The notes under the pieces are model-generated. The model did no database searches and was not told the origin of the DNA. It was given only the letters and a program-made list of their open reading frames with translations. Shown piece by piece: positions 1-33,184 of a stretch of DNA of 33,184 nt (position 1 is its first letter; each line of letters opens with the position of its first letter). This DNA comes from Chitinophaga pinensis. Lineage in GTDB: Bacteria > Bacteroidota > Bacteroidia > CAMBQF01. Location of the stretch: the NCBI GenBank assembly GCA_945869825.1, contig CAMBQF010000020.1, positions 1 through 33,184 of the forward strand. Direction: 5' to 3'. The translations under genes were made by a program, and so were the position numbers.

Positions 1-378
1 GCTTACGAAAACGAAGGTGCTATGTGGATTGTTACGCCCGGCATAAGCAACAGTGCAGGCAACCTGGCCTTGCACCTGGTTGGTAACCTTAACAACTTTA
101 TAGGCGCTGCATTAGGCAATACAGGCTATGTACGCAACCGCGATGCTGAGTTTACAACCAAAGATGTTCCAAGGGAGAAAATCATTGCTGATATTGACGA
201 AGTAATAGGTATTGTTAAATCTACCGTTGGAGCGTTAACGCCCGCTCAACTGGAGGAGATATACCCTGAAGACAAATGGAAAGACCCGGTTACTGTGCAC
301 CATTTATTGTTGCACCTGCTTACTCACCTTAACTACCATTTAGGGCAGATAAATTACCATAGGAGATTGGTGGGCTAA
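1..378 (+). CDS. DinB-like (DUF1572-type) four-helix protein, 5' end missing
   Basis: The open frame enters from the window edge: codons before the first internal ATG at 22 are already in frame, so the true start lies outside. The visible 125 residues are all helix-prone. They end in a histidine-rich helix (HLLLHLLTHLNYHLGQ) that resembles the metal-binding third histidine region of the DinB/YfiT superfamily. Members are small four-helix metal-binding proteins; some act as thiol-dependent transferases, but most have no assigned reaction, so no substrate is proposed. The gene ends at TAA 376-378, followed by a 92-bp gap of repeated GAAAAAT-type sequence before the next gene on the same strand. 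Family assignment rests on the helix pattern and the final histidine motif; the N-terminal part cannot be judged. Confidence 0.7.
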   Translation, partial: AYENEGAMWIVTPGISNSAGNLALHLVGNLNNFIGAALGNTGYVRNRDAEFTTKDVPREKIIADIDEVIGIVKSTVGALTPAQLEEIYPEDKWKDPVTVHHLLLHLLTHLNYHLGQINYHRRLVG

Positions 379-470: not shown

Positions 471-1367
471 ATGAAAAAACTACTTTTTGTTCTTTTAACT
501 TTTTGCGCACTTCCCTTATTGGCGCAGAAACCCAAATACGTTTTATTAATTGGTATTGATGGTTTAGGTGGCTATGCTTTCCCAAAGGCAGAAACACCAA
601 ACATTGATGAACTGGCTAAGAATGGCGCATCGACCTACACAGCCAAATGCGTTATGCCAAGCAGTAGCAGCCAAAACTGGGCCAGCATGATTATGGGTGC
701 TCCTCCAAAGTATACAAACATTCCACGTAATGGCTTTAGTATAAAAAAGGCTACCGGAACTGCGTATTGTGGCAGGCCAAAAGGCAGGTTATTCCCATCA
801 ATATATACTATACTGCGAGAGCAAAAACCAACATCGAAAATTGTGGTTTTGCACCATTGGGGTGATTACGACCGCCTTGTTGAAGACAAAGACCTGACCA
901 TTCGCAAGCATACTAAAACTGAAGATAGTACAGCCATTGCAGCTGTTGATGTAATTAAAAACGGCATGCCCGATTTACTGTTTCTGCATTTTGACCATGT
1001 TGACCATGCCGGCCATAGCATTGGCCACAATACCGATGGGTATTACAAAGCCGTAGCCAAAGCCGACTCGCTGGTAGGGGTTGTTATTGCTGCACTTAAA
1101 ACTGCAGGGGTTTATGATGATACCGTAATTATTTTAACCGCAGACCATGGCGGCAAAGGTAAAGGCCACGGCGGCCCAAGCCTTGTAGAACGTAACATAC
1201 CGTGGATTATAAGCGGGCCCGGGGTAAATAAAAACGTATCGCTTATAAACGAGATTAACACCTACGATACCGCAGCTACTATAGCCTACGTAATGGGCCT
1301 TACCCAACCTGAATGCTGGAAAGGTAAGCCTGTGACAGGAGCATTTAAACTAAATATGAAAAACTAA
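471..1367 (+). CDS. Secreted alkaline-phosphatase-superfamily phosphodiesterase/pyrophosphatase
   Basis: This 298-residue protein opens with a signal peptide (MKKLLFVLLTFCALPLLAQ, about residues 1-19), so it is exported to the periplasm or beyond. The mature part carries the landmarks of the type I phosphodiesterase/nucleotide pyrophosphatase branch: a first metal motif GIDGLG near residue 28, a nucleophile region CVMPSSSSQNWASMIMG around 60-76, HFDHVDHAGH near 174-183 and TADHGGKGKGHGG near 224-236. The Asp and His residues are those that hold the two metal ions in this superfamily. At about 300 residues it is a minimal catalytic domain with no accessory domain. It lacks a T9SS C-terminal domain. 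The substrate cannot be read from sequence. The frame begins at an ATG with the signal peptide directly after it, so the start is well supported. Confidence 0.85.
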   Translation: MKKLLFVLLTFCALPLLAQKPKYVLLIGIDGLGGYAFPKAETPNIDELAKNGASTYTAKCVMPSSSSQNWASMIMGAPPKYTNIPRNGFSIKKATGTAYCGRPKGRLFPSIYTILREQKPTSKIVVLHHWGDYDRLVEDKDLTIRKHTKTEDSTAIAAVDVIKNGMPDLLFLHFDHVDHAGHSIGHNTDGYYKAVAKADSLVGVVIAALKTAGVYDDTVIILTADHGGKGKGHGGPSLVERNIPWIISGPGVNKNVSLINEINTYDTAATIAYVMGLTQPECWKGKPVTGAFKLNMKN

Positions 1368-8919: not shown

Positions 8920-8969
8920 TAAAGGTAAAAATTATAAAAGCAACAAAAGGTTTAGGCAAAATCTTGTTA

Positions 8970-9227
8970 TTATTGTTTACCAGGGTCGTCGGTAATGTCT
9001 TTTGTGGCGTCCTGAGTTATCTTTTTAGCCTCTTGTTCCATTTTACGGGCACTATCCTGTATCTCTCGCTGAATGCCGTTTGTAGCGTCTTTAAACTCGC
9101 GCATACCTTTACCCAGCCCCTTGGCCAGTTCGGGTATTTTGTTGGCACCAAACAAAAGCATCACCACAAACAAAATCAAAACTATTTCGCTTGTACCAAG
9201 ATTTAAAAATAAAATGATTGCGTTCAT
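8970..9227 (-). CDS. tatA: Twin-arginine translocase subunit TatA/TatE
   Basis: An 85-residue protein with the TatA layout. A short N-terminal membrane helix (about 5-25: [21 protein letters not shown]) is followed by the [21 protein letters not shown] hinge and amphipathic helix, then a charged tail rich in Lys, Asp and Gln. TatA multimers form the pore by which folded proteins cross the inner membrane in the Tat pathway; a TatC partner is not in this window. Length is typical. It has its own consensus promoter (9247-9279) and lies downstream of the secDF terminator, so it is probably expressed separately from secDF. No terminator was seen in the 112 bp before the next gene, so some readthrough is possible. 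Confidence 0.93.
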
Positions 9228-28051: not shown

Positions 28052-28125
28052 TCCCTGATAGCTCAGTTGGTTAGAGCGAATGACTGTTAATCATTAGGTC
28101 TCTGGTTCGAGCCCAGATCGGGGAG
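28052..28125 (+). tRNA. tRNA-Asn (GUU)
   Basis: A 74-nt cloverleaf. Acceptor TCCCTGA pairs with TCGGGGA, with discriminator G. The D stem is GCTC/GAGC, the anticodon stem AATGA/TCATT with loop CTGTTAA (anticodon GTT at 28086-28088), and the T stem TCTGG/CCAGA with loop TTCGAGC. CCA is not fully encoded (CAT follows the discriminator). The 3' half is overlapped antisense by the end of the serine recombinase frame, the usual picture at an integration site. Confidence 0.97.
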
Positions 28126-29665
28126 CATAAGTAGACAGGCTGGCAGAAATGTCAGCCTGTTCTGTTTTAATAACTCCCAAACCATTGATATTACTAGTCA
28201 AAAGAACAAGCACCTCGTTTATTCTTGTGGTTCGATAACTATTCTCAGAAAAAATTAATTTTAAAGGGAATATCGAACCAATCAACTTTTGTTTCACCTC
28301 CAAACTAGCTCTGCTGTAATATTCCTTTATGTTATAAAGAAGGGGGAAGCCATATTCTAAGTAAGCCTTTAGTGCCGATTTTTCCATTCCCACCTCATTT
28401 CGCTTCTCAACCAATTCCTCCTCCTCACTATCAATACGCCTTTTAATTCCTTTGTAGTCTGAAGCTTCTATAAAATCGTTTAAAAATTTATCCTCAAGAG
28501 AAGCCAATTTTGCTCTTACTGCTCTTATTTGGATATCTAGGTTATCCATATATTGTTTTCTTTCTATATCACCTGCACTGAAAACATCATCCAAAATCGA
28601 ATCATATAAGCATAATATTTCCGCAGGAACTTGAAAGCTACCTAGGTAGTTCGCGAATATTTCATTCGCAACATCTGACCTAAATCTCTCGTTGCAACCT
28701 CTTTGACAATGGTAATAGTAATGCTTAGCCCCATTGCGACTTCTGGAGCCGCTTCCAGTAAGATTACTAGAGCATATACGGCAGACTAAATGTCCTCTTA
28801 AGGGAAGGTTATCATTCCGAGTTATTCTAACTGGGATTTTTTTTTTCTTTCCATCTAGTATAGCCTGCACCTCGTTAAAGAGCGACTCGTCAATGATTGC
28901 TTCATGCAAACCTTTTACTACCGTTTCGGCTTCATCTTTCCAAGCAGTAATTCTAATTTTCCCGCAATAAAATGGATTCCTCATTATATTCAGAAAGGTT
29001 TGTTTGCTGCAGTTTTTCATCCCTTCTTTAAGTAGTCGCTTTCTTATCTCGTCTATAAAATAAGTGCCCATGGCAACTTCTTGAAAGCCTCTAACAATAA
29101 AAGGTGCATTATAAGAATCAACTTCTACTAGCCGTGTTAGTTTATTATTCTTATAACCCAACGGAGCTCGACCTGTACATCTTCCTTCTTTATTGGCCTG
29201 CCTCATTCCTCTTTTGGTATTGTCACCTCGAACTAGGTTTTCTTGCTGAGCAGCACCTGTCATTATAAGAAGAGGGAGAAATTTTGCAGTATCTGTAAAG
29301 TCTAACTCTCCATCATTTAGCGAAAAAACTTTCACATTAAAAGCAGATAGCTCTTTCACCATCATAAGAGTTTCCATAGCATTTCGGGAAAATCGGTCTA
29401 TTTTTGTCACAATTAATACACCTGCCAAAATTTCCTTTGACTTTAGCATCCTCAGAATACTCTGAAACTCAGGCCTGTTAAAATTTTTTGCAGAATGGTG
29501 TTCCTCAAAAGTAAACACTTCTGTAAAATTCTCTCGTTCACAATACTGGCGAAGTCGTTGTGTTTGCTCTTGTAGACTATAGCCCAACTCTTTTTGCTCA
29601 TCAGTAGAGACACGGGAATAGATTATTGCATTAGAGCTAGTCTGTTTGTTTTTTTCGTGTTTCAT
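28094..29665 (-). CDS. Large serine recombinase (island integrase)
   Basis: Started at the ATG at 29665, it has 523 residues; a TTG two codons earlier is possible. The resolvase catalytic domain (about 12-155) has YSRVSTDEQ with nucleophile Ser20, the HSAKNFNRPEF motif and KIDRFSRN. The recombinase domain (about 165-275, GRAPLGYK and IMRNPFYCGKI) is followed by a zinc ribbon with C-x2-C (CRIC) and C-x3-C (CQRGC) and a coiled coil (about 375-430). This is the layout of large serine integrases that insert phages and integrative elements. The C-terminal residues YAPRSGLEPET are encoded antisense to tRNA-Asn, whose sequence supplies the stop codon. The frame therefore depends on the integrated state, and the tRNA is the likely attachment site (inference). 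Confidence 0.92.
   Translation of the reverse strand: MKHEKNKQTSSNAIIYSRVSTDEQKELGYSLQEQTQRLRQYCERENFTEVFTFEEHHSAKNFNRPEFQSILRMLKSKEILAGVLIVTKIDRFSRNAMETLMMVKELSAFNVKVFSLNDGELDFTDTAKFLPLLIMTGAAQQENLVRGDNTKRGMRQANKEGRCTGRAPLGYKNNKLTRLVEVDSYNAPFIVRGFQEVAMGTYFIDEIRKRLLKEGMKNCSKQTFLNIMRNPFYCGKIRITAWKDEAETVVKGLHEAIIDESLFNEVQAILDGKKKKIPVRITRNDNLPLRGHLVCRICSSNLTGSGSRSRNGAKHYYYHCQRGCNERFRSDVANEIFANYLGSFQVPAEILCLYDSILDDVFSAGDIERKQYMDNLDIQIRAVRAKLASLEDKFLNDFIEASDYKGIKRRIDSEEEELVEKRNEVGMEKSALKAYLEYGFPLLYNIKEYYSRASLEVKQKLIGSIFPLKLIFSENSYRTTRINEVLVLLTSNINGLGVIKTEQADISASLSTYAPRSGLEPET
28135..28168 (+). terminator. Terminator hairpin after tRNA-Asn
   Basis: Stem ACAGGCTGGCA (28135-28145) with TGTCAGCCTGT (28150-28160), one G-T pair, a GAAA loop, then TTCTGTTTT. 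It starts ten bases after the tRNA and lies antisense within the last codons of the recombinase gene. Confidence 0.7.
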
Positions 29666-29841
29666 ATTCAATTAGTGCTATTATGTATAATAAGTTACGA
29701 ATTTTCTTTGTTTCTTCAACATTATACTGCTTAATATTCTTGTTTAAAATTGACCTGCATTTTTCAATTGAAATCATAGAAAGCTATTGCTCTCAGCCTC
29801 GGTTTTTCCGATGGTTTTTGACGTTTGTTTTTCATTTGTTC
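29666..29841. other. AT-rich gap between recombinase genes
   Basis: No gene is supported. On the minus strand, right after the truncated gene-tail copy, a 22-codon frame begins MKNKRQKPSEKPRL. Its upstream junction resembles, with gaps, the start of the dead recombinase, so it may be a remnant of a second recombinase 5' end. Confidence 0.35.
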
Positions 29842-29895
29842 TTAAAATTTTCGTTTGTAAATTCTCTTAATATACAGTTGATTAAATCCAGAGGT
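29842..29895 (-). pseudogene. Duplicated 3' tail of the 83-residue gene
   Basis: These 54 bases match 30364-30417 at 53 positions; the single difference changes one codon from Glu to Lys. On the minus strand they encode the last 18 codons (TSGFNQLYIKRIYKRKF and the stop) of the small unknown gene, but nothing upstream of them is that gene: the dead recombinase frame runs into it. Weaker similarity continues a few bases on both sides. Confidence 0.85.
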
Positions 29896-29901
29896 TTATA
29901 C

Positions 29902-30363
29902 TCATTTATTCGGAACTATAGCGACTTTAGATGTCTTCTTGGACTTATCTAATCCAGTAATGTGTAACAACATATTCAATAGCATAAAATTATTTGAAAT
30001 ATGATGGTCTATCCATTGCTCTGTAGCATTAACTTCTATTCCTAGTTTTTTAAATTCTTTAATTTTAGTTATACCCTTTTGTATGTCTCGAGAGAATCTG
30101 TCCCATTTTATGACTAGCAAATAGTCAATATCTGCTTTATTCTTTTTAGCGTATTTAAATAATAGTTTGAACTGTGGCCTAACAAAAGTTTTTCCAGAAA
30201 AACAATCATGGTAGTGTTTAACAACTTCAATTCCTTTAGCTGCACAGTACTTTCTTAGCTCATCTTCTTGGGATGTTTGTGAGTAATTATGTAGCTGGTC
30301 ATCTGTAGCTACTCTAGTATAAAGTATTGCCTTTTTCATCGACCTGTCATTTTTAGTTTGCAT
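29902..30363 (-). CDS. Truncated, catalytically dead serine recombinase
   Basis: A 153-residue protein equal to the resolvase catalytic domain alone. The family pattern is clear: AILYTRVATDDQ, KTFVRPQFKLLF, VIKWDRFSRD, LGIEVNATEQWIDHHISNNFML. The position of the nucleophilic Ser (YxRVS) is Ala19 (codon GCT). After residue about 135 the recombinase homology stops; the usual ENDRR linker and the DNA-binding domains are missing, and the frame ends inside the duplicated tail of its upstream neighbour. It starts directly after that neighbour's stop (TAAATG), so it would be translated by coupling; a second ATG eight codons in is possible. Probably a decaying copy. Use as a regulator by dimerising with the active recombinase is conceivable but unproven. 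Confidence 0.82.
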   Translation of the reverse strand: MQTKNDRSMKKAILYTRVATDDQLHNYSQTSQEDELRKYCAAKGIEVVKHYHDCFSGKTFVRPQFKLLFKYAKKNKADIDYLLVIKWDRFSRDIQKGITKIKEFKKLGIEVNATEQWIDHHISNNFMLLNMLLHITGLDKSKKTSKVAIVPNK

Positions 30364-30615
30364 TTAAAATTTTCGTTTGTAAATTCTCTCAATATACAGT
30401 TGATTAAATCCAGAGGTCTTTACATTTATTACTTGGTGGCTATGTTCATTTAATAGCATTCCTATATTGACTTTCCCCTTTTCTACAAGCTCTACACTTT
30501 CAATAATGGTAATTTTATTGCCCGTTAGTTTTATCTTTATTTCAGATAAATTACCTTTTAGAAATTGCGAAAGCAAGTAGTTTATAGCTGTTGTATTTGA
30601 TGCTTTTTCTTCCAT
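30364..30615 (-). CDS. Small protein of unknown function (83 aa)
   Basis: I do not recognise this protein. It is 83 residues long, begins MEEKASNTTAINYLLSQFLKGN and has an alternating pattern suggesting a helix followed by beta strands (IKIKLTGNKITIIESVELV, INVKTSGFNQLYIERIYKRKF). It has no signal peptide, membrane segment or cysteine. Its stop is fused to the ATG of the dead recombinase (TAAATG), so the two were a co-translated pair. Its last 18 codons are duplicated on the other side of the recombinase. This implies that the pair once existed in at least two tandem copies. Lying just upstream of a recombinase start, it could be an accessory or directionality factor, but no motif shows this. 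Confidence 0.6.
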   Translation of the reverse strand: MEEKASNTTAINYLLSQFLKGNLSEIKIKLTGNKITIIESVELVEKGKVNIGMLLNEHSHQVINVKTSGFNQLYIERIYKRKF

Positions 30616-30679: not shown

Positions 30680-31340
30680 ATTTTTCATGCCGTAATATAG
30701 ACAGGACAGCCAAAAAAGGGGAACCTCCACACAGCTCGACTCCTTATATATATGACTGTGGTCTTTCATGCCGTAATATAGATGGGATAGGCAAAAAAGG
30801 GGAGCCTCCACACAGCTTGGCTCCTTATATATGTTGCGGTTGTTCTTCATGGCGCAATATAGATGGGATAGGCAAAAAAGGGGAGCCTCCACACAGCTCA
30901 GCTCCTTGTATATATGACCGTGGTCTTTCATGCCGTAATATAGATGGGACAGGCAAAAAAGGGGAACCTCCACACAGCTCGACTCCTTATATATATGACC
31001 GTGGTCTTTCATGGAGCAATATAGACTGGACAGGCAAAAAAAGGGAACCATCGCCGAGCTCAGCTCCTTGTATATGTTAGGGTTATTTTTCATGCCGCAA
31101 TATCGCTGGGATAGGCAAAAAAAGGGAACCTCCACACAGCTCGACTCCTTATATATATGACCGTGGCCTTTCATGCCGTAATATAGATAGGACAGGCAAA
31201 AAGGGGAGCCTCCACACAGCTCGGCTCCTTATATATGACCGTGGTCTTTCATGCCGTAATATAGATAGGACAGGCGTAAAAGGGAGGTTCAGCGGCGCTT
31301 GGCCCATTGTCTGTATTACGATTGTTCTTCACGCCGCAAT
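30680..31340 (-). repeat. Tandem array of about eight 81-bp units with a minus-strand hairpin in each
   Basis: Using the conserved word CATGCCGTAATATAG (CATG or variant) as the mark, units start at 30686, 30767, 30848, 30929, 31010, 31091, 31172, 31250 and 31330. Six consecutive spacings are exactly 81, then 78 and 80; the last units are degraded. There are no spacers: the whole unit repeats. Since 81 is 27 codons, long frames stay open on both strands (30661-31080 plus, 30659-31174 minus), giving 27-residue protein repeats; neither has a convincing start, so neither is called a gene. In units 1-7 the minus strand carries GGAGYY-N12-GGYTCC (3' arm) followed by CC and a run of five to seven T. 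Variable bases remain paired there as G-C or G-U. Linkers of a second type recur after units 2, 5 and 8. Confidence 0.95.
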
Positions 31341-31617
31341 ATAGCTGGAACAAGAAAAAAGAGGGATAATCAACCCTCGATTGCTTTCAAAAATCGTTGG
31401 TTAAAATAAATAACAAGCCTTTGAATAGCTCTAGCAAGTGCCTATAAATACTCTTATTCTAGCACCTAAATCAAAAATTCCACCCTTAACAGCCTAAATT
31501 TCTGTTGGTTGAGATTTTTTGGCAAAAAAATTGGGCAAAAAAATGCGAGAGCATATACTCAACTTCCCTTTTTTTTATTTTTTTTTGGCGCGAAATTGAT
31601 TCGCCCCGCTGACCTCA
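31341..31617. other. AT-rich stretch without a gene
   Basis: No coding region is supported. It contains a weak GAGGG/CCCTC hairpin near 31351-31368, long T/A runs around 31565-31585, and a small hairpin GCGAA-ATTGA-TTCGC near 31590-31605. The right end of the island may lie here or just beyond, but no copy of the tRNA-Asn 3' end was found. Confidence 0.4.
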
Positions 31618-31899
31618 CTAGCTAACAACCGCCATCACCTTAATAATTTGACTGTCTTTCTTGGAAAATATTGAATGGGCAAATAAGAAGCTTGTTGCAG
31701 TCACTTTGATGTCAGTCATTTCGCTTACTTTGAAAAGTTTAAGCTTGCTATTTGTGGGGCTTATTTCAAAGCCTCTTAGCATAAGCTCACCTGTTTTATT
31801 GATGCCAATCAAGTAAGGCTCTAAAGTTCTTTTAGTTCCTTTATACGTAAATTCTATTCGCTTTTTATCTGTTATAGCGGAAATAATATCCAGTAACAT
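31618..31899 (-). CDS. Stand-alone WYL-domain protein
   Basis: This 93-residue protein consists of a single WYL-like domain: IISAITDKKRIEFTYKG, RTLEPYLIGINKTGELMLRGF, KLKLFKVSEMTDIKVTATSF. The RxLEPY and LRGF elements are the landmarks. WYL domains bind ligands or nucleic acids and usually follow a helix-turn-helix in regulators of phage defence and DNA damage. Here the helix-turn-helix is absent and the ATG is preceded by only about 20 bp before a strong terminator, so either it is a minimal single-domain form or it has lost its N-terminal part. A 22-bp dyad (31902-31923) sits just before the start. It belongs to the island or its border; its partner is unknown. Confidence 0.72.
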   Translation of the reverse strand: MLLDIISAITDKKRIEFTYKGTKRTLEPYLIGINKTGELMLRGFEISPTNSKLKLFKVSEMTDIKVTATSFLFAHSIFSKKDSQIIKVMAVVS

Positions 31900-31901
31900 A
31901 G

Positions 31902-31923
31902 TTTTTACTATAAATAGTAAAAA
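31902..31923. promoter_or_regulatory. Perfect dyad before the WYL gene
   Basis: TTTTTACTAT (31902-31911), two bases, ATAGTAAAAA (31914-31923): a perfect 10-bp inverted repeat two bases upstream of the WYL start codon. It could be an operator for autoregulation; it also overlaps the base of the adjacent terminator. Confidence 0.55.
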
Positions 31924-31959
31924 GAAATGCCACCCCGCTGAGAGGTGGCATTTCTTTTT
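31919..31959 (-). terminator. Terminator of the T9SS type A gene
   Basis: A 16-bp perfect stem (31919-31934 with 31944-31959) and 9-nt loop, with A/T tracts on both sides. It lies 27 bp after the stop of the minus-strand cargo gene and can work in both directions. Confidence 0.88.
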
Positions 31960-31985: not shown

Positions 31986-33184
31986 TTATAGTTTTATAAA
32001 CGCTCTATTGCAAGCCGCATTATCATCCATTATAAGTTTAACCATGTAAGCACCAGGCGCAAGGGTTGAGGTATTTAAGTCAAACTGTTTGCCCGATTTG
32101 TTTACCTCAGCCATTATTAGTTTGCCATACATGTCATAAATTTCAATAGCTACATTGTTAGCGAGCTTGGTAAGACTAATGGTTATGTATTCATTGGCAG
32201 GGTTGGGATATATTCTAAACTGTAGTATTGATGCATCAATTAATCCTACGTTATTATCTACCGTTAACAAAGCTATTGCAGTTGTATCTGAACAACCATC
32301 TAGTGAAACTGCGCACCTGAAGGCCTGCCCATTATTTGCGGTTGTGGTATTGCTTACTGTTAGTGTATTTGTATTTACTCCGCTGTATTGCCCCGCATTG
32401 CTTAGGTTTTGAAAACCAAACCCTAAGTCCGATTGCCACTGGTAGGTTTGTATGTTACTGCCCGAGACGCTAAAAGTCGCATTGGTAGCTAAGTCTACAG
32501 TTTGGCTCTGGGGTTGGCTTGTAATCCCTAAAGAGCAGACACTAAGTATGGCAGAGTTAGAGTTAATTGAACAGCCCCCAGAAGATATTACACACCTAAA
32601 GCTTTGGTTGTTATTGTTTGGTGTTATAGAACCAACCAACAATGTATCATTAGTCACTCCACTGTATTGCCCTGCATTGCTTAGGTTCTGAAAGCCCAGT
32701 CCTACATCGCTTTGCCATTGGTAGTTTGCATTAGGGGTAGAAGTTGTTGCTACAAATTGGGCTGTTTGTCCCAAAGATGACAGTTGGTTTTGAGGTTGTG
32801 ATGTAATAACTGGCGCAGAGCCTACAGTCACCGTTATTGCTTGTGATGTAGCGGTGCAGTTGCCATTGCCAACCGTTACGGTATAGTTAGTCGTTTGGGT
32901 TGGTGACACCGTTATACTTTGCGTTTGCTGCCCATTACTCCAATTGTAATTGCTAGCAGAGCTAGAGGTTAATGTTACCGACTGGCCTTGGCAAATTGTC
33001 AGGCCACCCGATGGGGTTATGGTGGGCGTGGGCACCGATGAGTTTACAACCACCGTTATTGCTTGTGATGTAGCGGTGCAGTTGCCATTGCCAACCGTTA
33101 CGGTATAGCTAGTCGTTTGGGTTGGTGACACCGTTATACTTTGCGTTTGCTGCCCATTACTCCAATTGTAATTGCTAGCAGAGC
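31986..33184 (-). CDS. T9SS type A cargo protein with Ig-like repeats, 5' end outside the window
   Basis: The frame stays open to the window edge, so the start and signal peptide are missing; about 398 residues are visible. Two copies of a repeat with SASNYNWSNGQQTQSITVSP and YTVTVGNGNCTATSQAITV are followed by two Ig-like domains, each with YQWQSD-[VL]-G-[LF]-GFQNLSNAGQYSG and a Cys pair (FRCVISSGGC / FRCAVSLDGC). A type A sorting domain ends the protein (LQFRIYPNPANEYITISL, EIYDMYGKL, GAYMVKLIM). It is a surface or released protein of the type IX system with an adhesin-like build. Its typical Bacteroidota cargo form suggests host DNA resumes here. Confidence 0.88.
   Translation of the reverse strand, partial: SASNYNWSNGQQTQSITVSPTQTTSYTVTVGNGNCTATSQAITVVVNSSVPTPTITPSGGLTICQGQSVTLTSSSASNYNWSNGQQTQSITVSPTQTTNYTVTVGNGNCTATSQAITVTVGSAPVITSQPQNQLSSLGQTAQFVATTSTPNANYQWQSDVGLGFQNLSNAGQYSGVTNDTLLVGSITPNNNNQSFRCVISSGGCSINSNSAILSVCSLGITSQPQSQTVDLATNATFSVSGSNIQTYQWQSDLGFGFQNLSNAGQYSGVNTNTLTVSNTTTANNGQAFRCAVSLDGCSDTTAIALLTVDNNVGLIDASILQFRIYPNPANEYITISLTKLANNVAIEIYDMYGKLIMAEVNKSGKQFDLNTSTLAPGAYMVKLIMDDNAACNRAFIKL
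32830..33184 (-). repeat. Direct 222-bp-spaced repeat inside the T9SS cargo gene
   Basis: Bases 32830-32962 and 33052-33184 are identical except for one base by eye; the offset of 222 bp equals 74 codons. The near-identity suggests recent duplication or gene conversion, and the repeat may continue beyond the window. Confidence 0.85.

Follow-up and report, generated by a model that had tools for sequence, protein, structure and literature searches.

RESULTS

Organization of the locus

The window, by which we mean the entire contig C20 (33,184 bp, from a 2.98-Mb genome in 189 contigs), contains a tandem array of 81-bp units flanked on one side by genes for serine recombinases and on the other by a gene for a WYL-domain protein (Table 1). 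The array lies directly upstream, in the minus-strand sense, of a small gene and two serine recombinases, as the initial annotation had stated.

Table 1. Features of the array and its surroundings; positions are those of the window unless contig C61 of the same genome (L091) is named
Feature	Position	Strand	Remarks and basis
tRNA-Asn	28052-28126		3' end overlapped antisense by the last codons of the integrase gene
attL core GGGGAGCA	28120-28127	.	3' end of tRNA-Asn; located by comparing sister genomes and contig C61
Large serine recombinase (integrase)	28094-29671	-	Pfam/NCBIfam; last codons antisense to tRNA-Asn
Small ORF, unlisted, about 48 aa	29640-29783	-	matches the pre-integrase ORF of relatives; profile of 35 relatives, E 9.9e-14
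74-bp direct repeat, two copies	29828-29901; 30350-30423		89% identical
153-aa protein, serine-recombinase catalytic domain only	29902-30363	-	Pfam PF00239
Small gene adjoining the array, 83 aa	30364-30615	-	predicted C-terminal domain of a MerR-like protein
Array, units 1-6	30683-31168	.	all exactly 81 bp long; first bases 30683, 30764, 30845, 30926, 31007, 31088; TRF, repeat finder, alignments
Array, unit 7	31169-31246	.	78 bp; a 1-bp and a 2-bp deletion, the rest well preserved; repeat finder, alignments
Array, units 8 and 9	31247-31402	.	about 80 and 76 bp, decayed; alignments, covariance model
Terminator-like hairpin in unit 9	31361-31378	-	GAGGG-8nt-CCCTC followed by TTTTTT; downstream of the WYL-domain gene; scan
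93-aa WYL-domain protein, other side of the array	31618-31899	-	Pfam PF13280, E 1.9e-4, exactly at the cut-off
Perfect 16-bp inverted repeat	31919-31959		T tracts on both strands
Secreted-protein gene	31986-33184		at the end of the window
N-terminus bearing a repeated motif	C61 (L091) 2-352		opens contig C61
Third serine recombinase, 200 aa	C61 (L091) 557-1159		resolvase size; far end of the element
attR core GGGGAGCA	C61 (L091) 1335-1342		on the other contig

Insertion of the element at tRNA-Asn

Two congeneric species (G001 and G002) match the window until about seven to nine bases beyond tRNA-Asn, where their DNA runs on into other chromosomal genes; they hold the unoccupied attachment site and lack the element. 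Contig C61, which belongs to the same genome as the window, carries this chromosomal continuation from base 1342 onwards, and in front of it stand GGGGAGCA and the 200-aa serine recombinase. The element is therefore bounded by attL and attR with a common 8-bp core, and both the attP and the attB of the integrase can be read at this locus. Comparison of these sequences thus places the array inside an element that owes its position at tRNA-Asn to the large serine integrase.

The secreted-protein gene at the end of the window encodes a C-terminal sorting domain (Por_Secre_tail). It and the N-terminus that opens C61 are probably the two ends of one long gene for a repetitive type IX-secreted protein, the repeats of which probably broke the assembly between the contigs. 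The inverted repeat between the secreted-protein and WYL-domain genes has the form of a strong two-way terminator.

A truncated and rearranged control module

The 83-aa product of the small gene matches a MerR-like protein (phmmer E 1.7e-4) and, with the profile of that family, aligns to the C-terminal 66 positions only (238-303 of 303; E 1.8e-5). Judged by these alignments, the gene preserves just the C-terminal domain of a MerR-like protein; the N-terminal DNA-binding part is absent. When the genome (99.8% complete) was searched with a MerR-like profile that included the 83-aa sequence, the small gene was recovered with E 8e-24 and no full-length copy was found elsewhere; because the query formed part of the profile, the informative result is the lack of any other match. 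The N-terminal part would lie where the array now stands, and a profile search detected no remnant of that part in the array or beyond. The 153-aa recombinase gene is flanked by the 74-bp direct repeat, which corresponds to the 3' end of the MerR-like gene, and looks like an insertion between the two copies or the outcome of a duplication of the segment. The MerR-like remnant and the flanked, catalytic-domain-only recombinase together indicate that the control module has been truncated and rearranged.

Structure of the array

The array consists of nine imperfect units joined head to tail from 30683 to 31402, a periodicity far beyond chance. The initial annotation had counted about eight units, six of them in a row at exactly 81-bp spacing; the six stand, and the count becomes nine, with the last unit reaching slightly past 31340. 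Tandem Repeats Finder (TRF) reported a period of 81 bp with 7.5 copies and 82% matches (score 805, 30683-31284) and a second period of 243 bp (score 913), a weak higher-order periodicity with which the somewhat greater likeness of units at lag three than of adjacent ones agrees (permutation p = 0.055). Start-to-start spacings given by the repeat finder were 81, 81, 81, 81, 81, 80 and 78. Nine matches over 30683-31402, from 107 down to 61 bits, came from a covariance model made with the units themselves; given the origin of the model, they describe the array and do not test it.

Units 1, 4, 6 and 7 are 87-95% identical to one another and unit 5 is 72-77% identical to units 1-4, 6 and 7, while the identity of units 8 and 9 to the others is 51-75% and 51-68%. 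The left edge is sharp and the right edge decayed, which bears out the earlier observation that degraded units occur at the right end only. The G+C content of the unit is 0.457, as against 0.29-0.37 in the adjoining recombinase genes. In sampled stretches of this genome totalling 800 kb, two other arrays of comparable strength were found, both within ORFs, and none that was non-coding.

Distribution of the unit

The 81-bp unit was matched nowhere else in its own genome, nor in 60 relatives, in samples of 395 genomes of the class and 386 of the phylum (which overlap), or in viral contigs, phages and plasmids, and a covariance-model search of 395 genomes did not recover it. Two exact unit patterns found nothing in 84,980 species, one genome each; because such patterns miss diverged copies, "unique" refers to these genome, viral, phage and plasmid collections at this sensitivity. 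A 27-bp match in genome G071, in ordinary sequence without repeats that resembles a membrane-protein gene, and an 18-bp exact match to apparent coding sequence without repeats in a viral contig were dismissed as chance matches. The libraries searched contained no described repeat or RNA that matched, in keeping with the statement that the array resembles no known tandem element, and nothing specific was found in the literature on 81-bp repeats and serine recombinase islands. The initial annotation had put forward a search of Bacteroidota genomes and had named occurrence at this locus only as a refutation of its reading; among all the collections covered, the unit was found only here.

Related integrases

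For comparison we used 38 related integrase loci from the same class (L012, L051-L087). In 27 of them the integrase gene ends antisense inside a tRNA or tmRNA, so that the attachment site supplies the C-terminus of the protein, and in three more a tRNA or tmRNA lies within about 75 bp of the integrase. Most of the relatives (about 35) carry directly before the integrase an ORF of 45-100 aa with a shared motif like LSLEECRKILNKNGxxYTDEEI; this small ORF is a candidate directionality or regulatory factor. In about ten of the 38, the small ORF is in turn preceded by a MerR-like protein of roughly 260-320 aa; in the single example scanned, MerR_1 scored above the Pfam cut-off. None of the 38 integrases has a comparable non-coding array beside it. 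Among these loci, the array is therefore not a recurrent feature of the integrase family.

Alternative accounts of the array

An array of contiguous units that are alike over their full length, without unique spacers, is not a CRISPR array, and an array without cassettes beside recombinases of the serine type, where an integron would have the tyrosine integrase IntI, is not an integron attC array; both exclusions had been made in the initial annotation. That annotation had left room for a recombination target, an RNA-producing locus or a regulatory leader. A target for the serine recombinases, or a locus producing RNA of a CRISPR-like or small-RNA kind, is suggested by the neighbourhood only, and we regard either as very unlikely. 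The best 30-mer of the array agreed with attP/attB at 18 positions, as compared with up to 19 for shuffled sites, so that its likeness to an att site is no better than that of shuffled sequence; a 7-bp identity (GGGGAGC) between the att core and some units was set aside because the arms do not match. The array had no Rfam match and a scan found no promoter-like site within it. Single units and the whole array folded no better than shuffles on either strand, and covariation of note was absent, which speaks against a structured RNA; a long imperfect hairpin on the plus strand was likewise rejected, its pairs being broken in several units with zero double changes. The chance that the array encodes a protein repeat of 27 residues per unit is slighter still. 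The unit length is a multiple of three and one minus-strand frame is free of stops across six units, giving 171 codons from an ATG at 31174, but by a rough estimate from composition an open frame in a 27-codon unit is expected. In that frame pN/pS is 0.74, against 0.57-0.86 over all six frames; a ratio similar in every frame indicates no codon constraint and in practice refutes the coding reading. Units 7-9 also contain frame-breaking indels, and no Pfam or NCBIfam family scored above cut-off for the reading frame.

Two further accounts remain. One treats the units as binding sites for a protein of the element (the MerR-like regulator, an excision factor or a partition protein), in the manner of iterons or operators. 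The position just upstream of the gene for the MerR-like C-terminal domain and the recombinases, and the exact 81-bp spacing over six units, would suit such a role, but the MerR-like DNA-binding domain is absent here and a full-length copy is absent from the genome, the units share no short inverted repeat, and relatives that keep the full-length regulator have no such array; we consider this account improbable. The other is that the array acts as a transcription insulator or attenuator, in which a series of seven to eight weak intrinsic terminators, all on the minus strand, would hold down read-through into the genes for the MerR-like C-terminal domain and the recombinases and so help to keep the element quiet. 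On that strand, which is the strand of the recombinase operon, each of units 1-7 has a stem of six pairs, counting G-U, that closes a 12-nt loop and is followed by a T6 tract. This terminator-like motif is absent from the plus strand, and shuffling leaves it on the minus strand in just 1% of units. The three variable columns of the stem are C/T changes, in which pairing with G is kept (as G-U) on the minus strand only; the better hairpin of unit 9 folds more stably than all 200 shuffles (z -2.9); and all element genes in the window share one reading direction. Against this, the hairpins of units 1-7 fold no better than shuffles (z -1.05 to 0.77), CC (two bases) separates the stem from the T tract, the motif is gone from unit 8, compensatory changes give the stem no real support, the single double change being in a decayed unit, and the related integrases do without such an array. 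As the only functional hint in the array, the terminator-like hairpin would be a modest one, and an insulator is on balance unlikely, if the least so of these accounts. It is doubtful that the array is, more specifically, an insulator of adjustable copy number, in which the gain and loss of units would tune read-through to the regulator and recombinase genes and hence mobility. The regulatory leader of the initial annotation is accordingly possible but weak, with the hairpin of units 1-7 as its one support.

DISCUSSION

We propose that the array is probably a non-coding intergenic minisatellite within a decaying integrative-element module. Several lines of evidence lead to this reading: the tandem periodicity, with a homogeneous centre, a decayed right edge and a 243-bp period; the absence of the unit from all collections searched and of comparable arrays near the 38 integrases; and the lack of a coding signal, RNA family or stable fold in an array that adjoins a truncated module. 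The units are spacer-less, head to tail and longer than about 10 bp, and, within the collections searched, the unit is lineage-specific and confined to a single locus. Evidence against the minisatellite reading is that the G+C content of the unit exceeds that of its neighbours and that the terminator-like motif is rare in shuffles and strand-specific; moreover, the genome is poor in such arrays, so that the array is not a common by-product of the lineage.

By this proposal, 81 bp of the element's control region would have been copied in tandem through replication slippage or unequal recombination, some of it apparently in blocks of 243 bp, and would then have begun to decay, most of all at the right edge. 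The site would be the eroded 5' part of a MerR-like/small-ORF/integrase module, just upstream of the surviving gene for the C-terminal domain. The array would need no dedicated function, and we infer that it has none; any effect would most likely be passive, with the minus-strand hairpins letting less transcription from the WYL-domain gene run on into those of the recombinases. The unit is new to the collections searched, and the array, which shows no mark of a new genetic system, is most likely of an ordinary kind.

Bacterial intergenic minisatellites are the VNTR loci used in MLVA typing (PMC10174486, PMC4860299, PMC2884548). The array resembles them in its imperfect head-to-tail units of tens of bases, non-coding and without spacers, at one locus and with decay at an edge, but differs from minisatellites in general in having a terminator-like hairpin per unit; the comparison covered one genome of the species. 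With iterons and operator arrays it has in common regular direct repeats near mobile-element genes; in contrast to iterons, its units are much longer and lack a conserved dyad, and no replication or partition gene adjoins it in the window. The element itself is like the large serine integrase elements of Bacteroidota that target tRNA genes, in which the integrase gene overlaps the 3' end of a tRNA in antisense and is preceded by a small ORF and, before it, a MerR-like gene. Unlike in those elements, only the C-terminal domain of the MerR-like gene is left here, a further recombinase consisting of the catalytic domain alone appears to have been inserted, and this copy alone has the array.

As one more intergenic minisatellite, the array would be of use chiefly as a possible strain marker; if the hairpins work, it would instead be an example of a tandem array that tunes how strongly the recombinases of a mobile element are expressed. 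More useful than the array are the precise attachment site at tRNA-Asn, with the unoccupied site in sister species, and the conserved module of MerR-like protein, small ORF and serine integrase in the Bacteroidota.

Repeats were also observed at some distance from integrases in the comparison set. Locus L063 has one longer array, with a 150-bp period, far upstream of its integrase, and in genome G032 short direct repeats at 8936-9010 and 52-139 of locus L052 (an 11-bp unit about seven times and a 21-bp unit about three times) lie roughly 0.5-0.9 kb upstream of two integrases.
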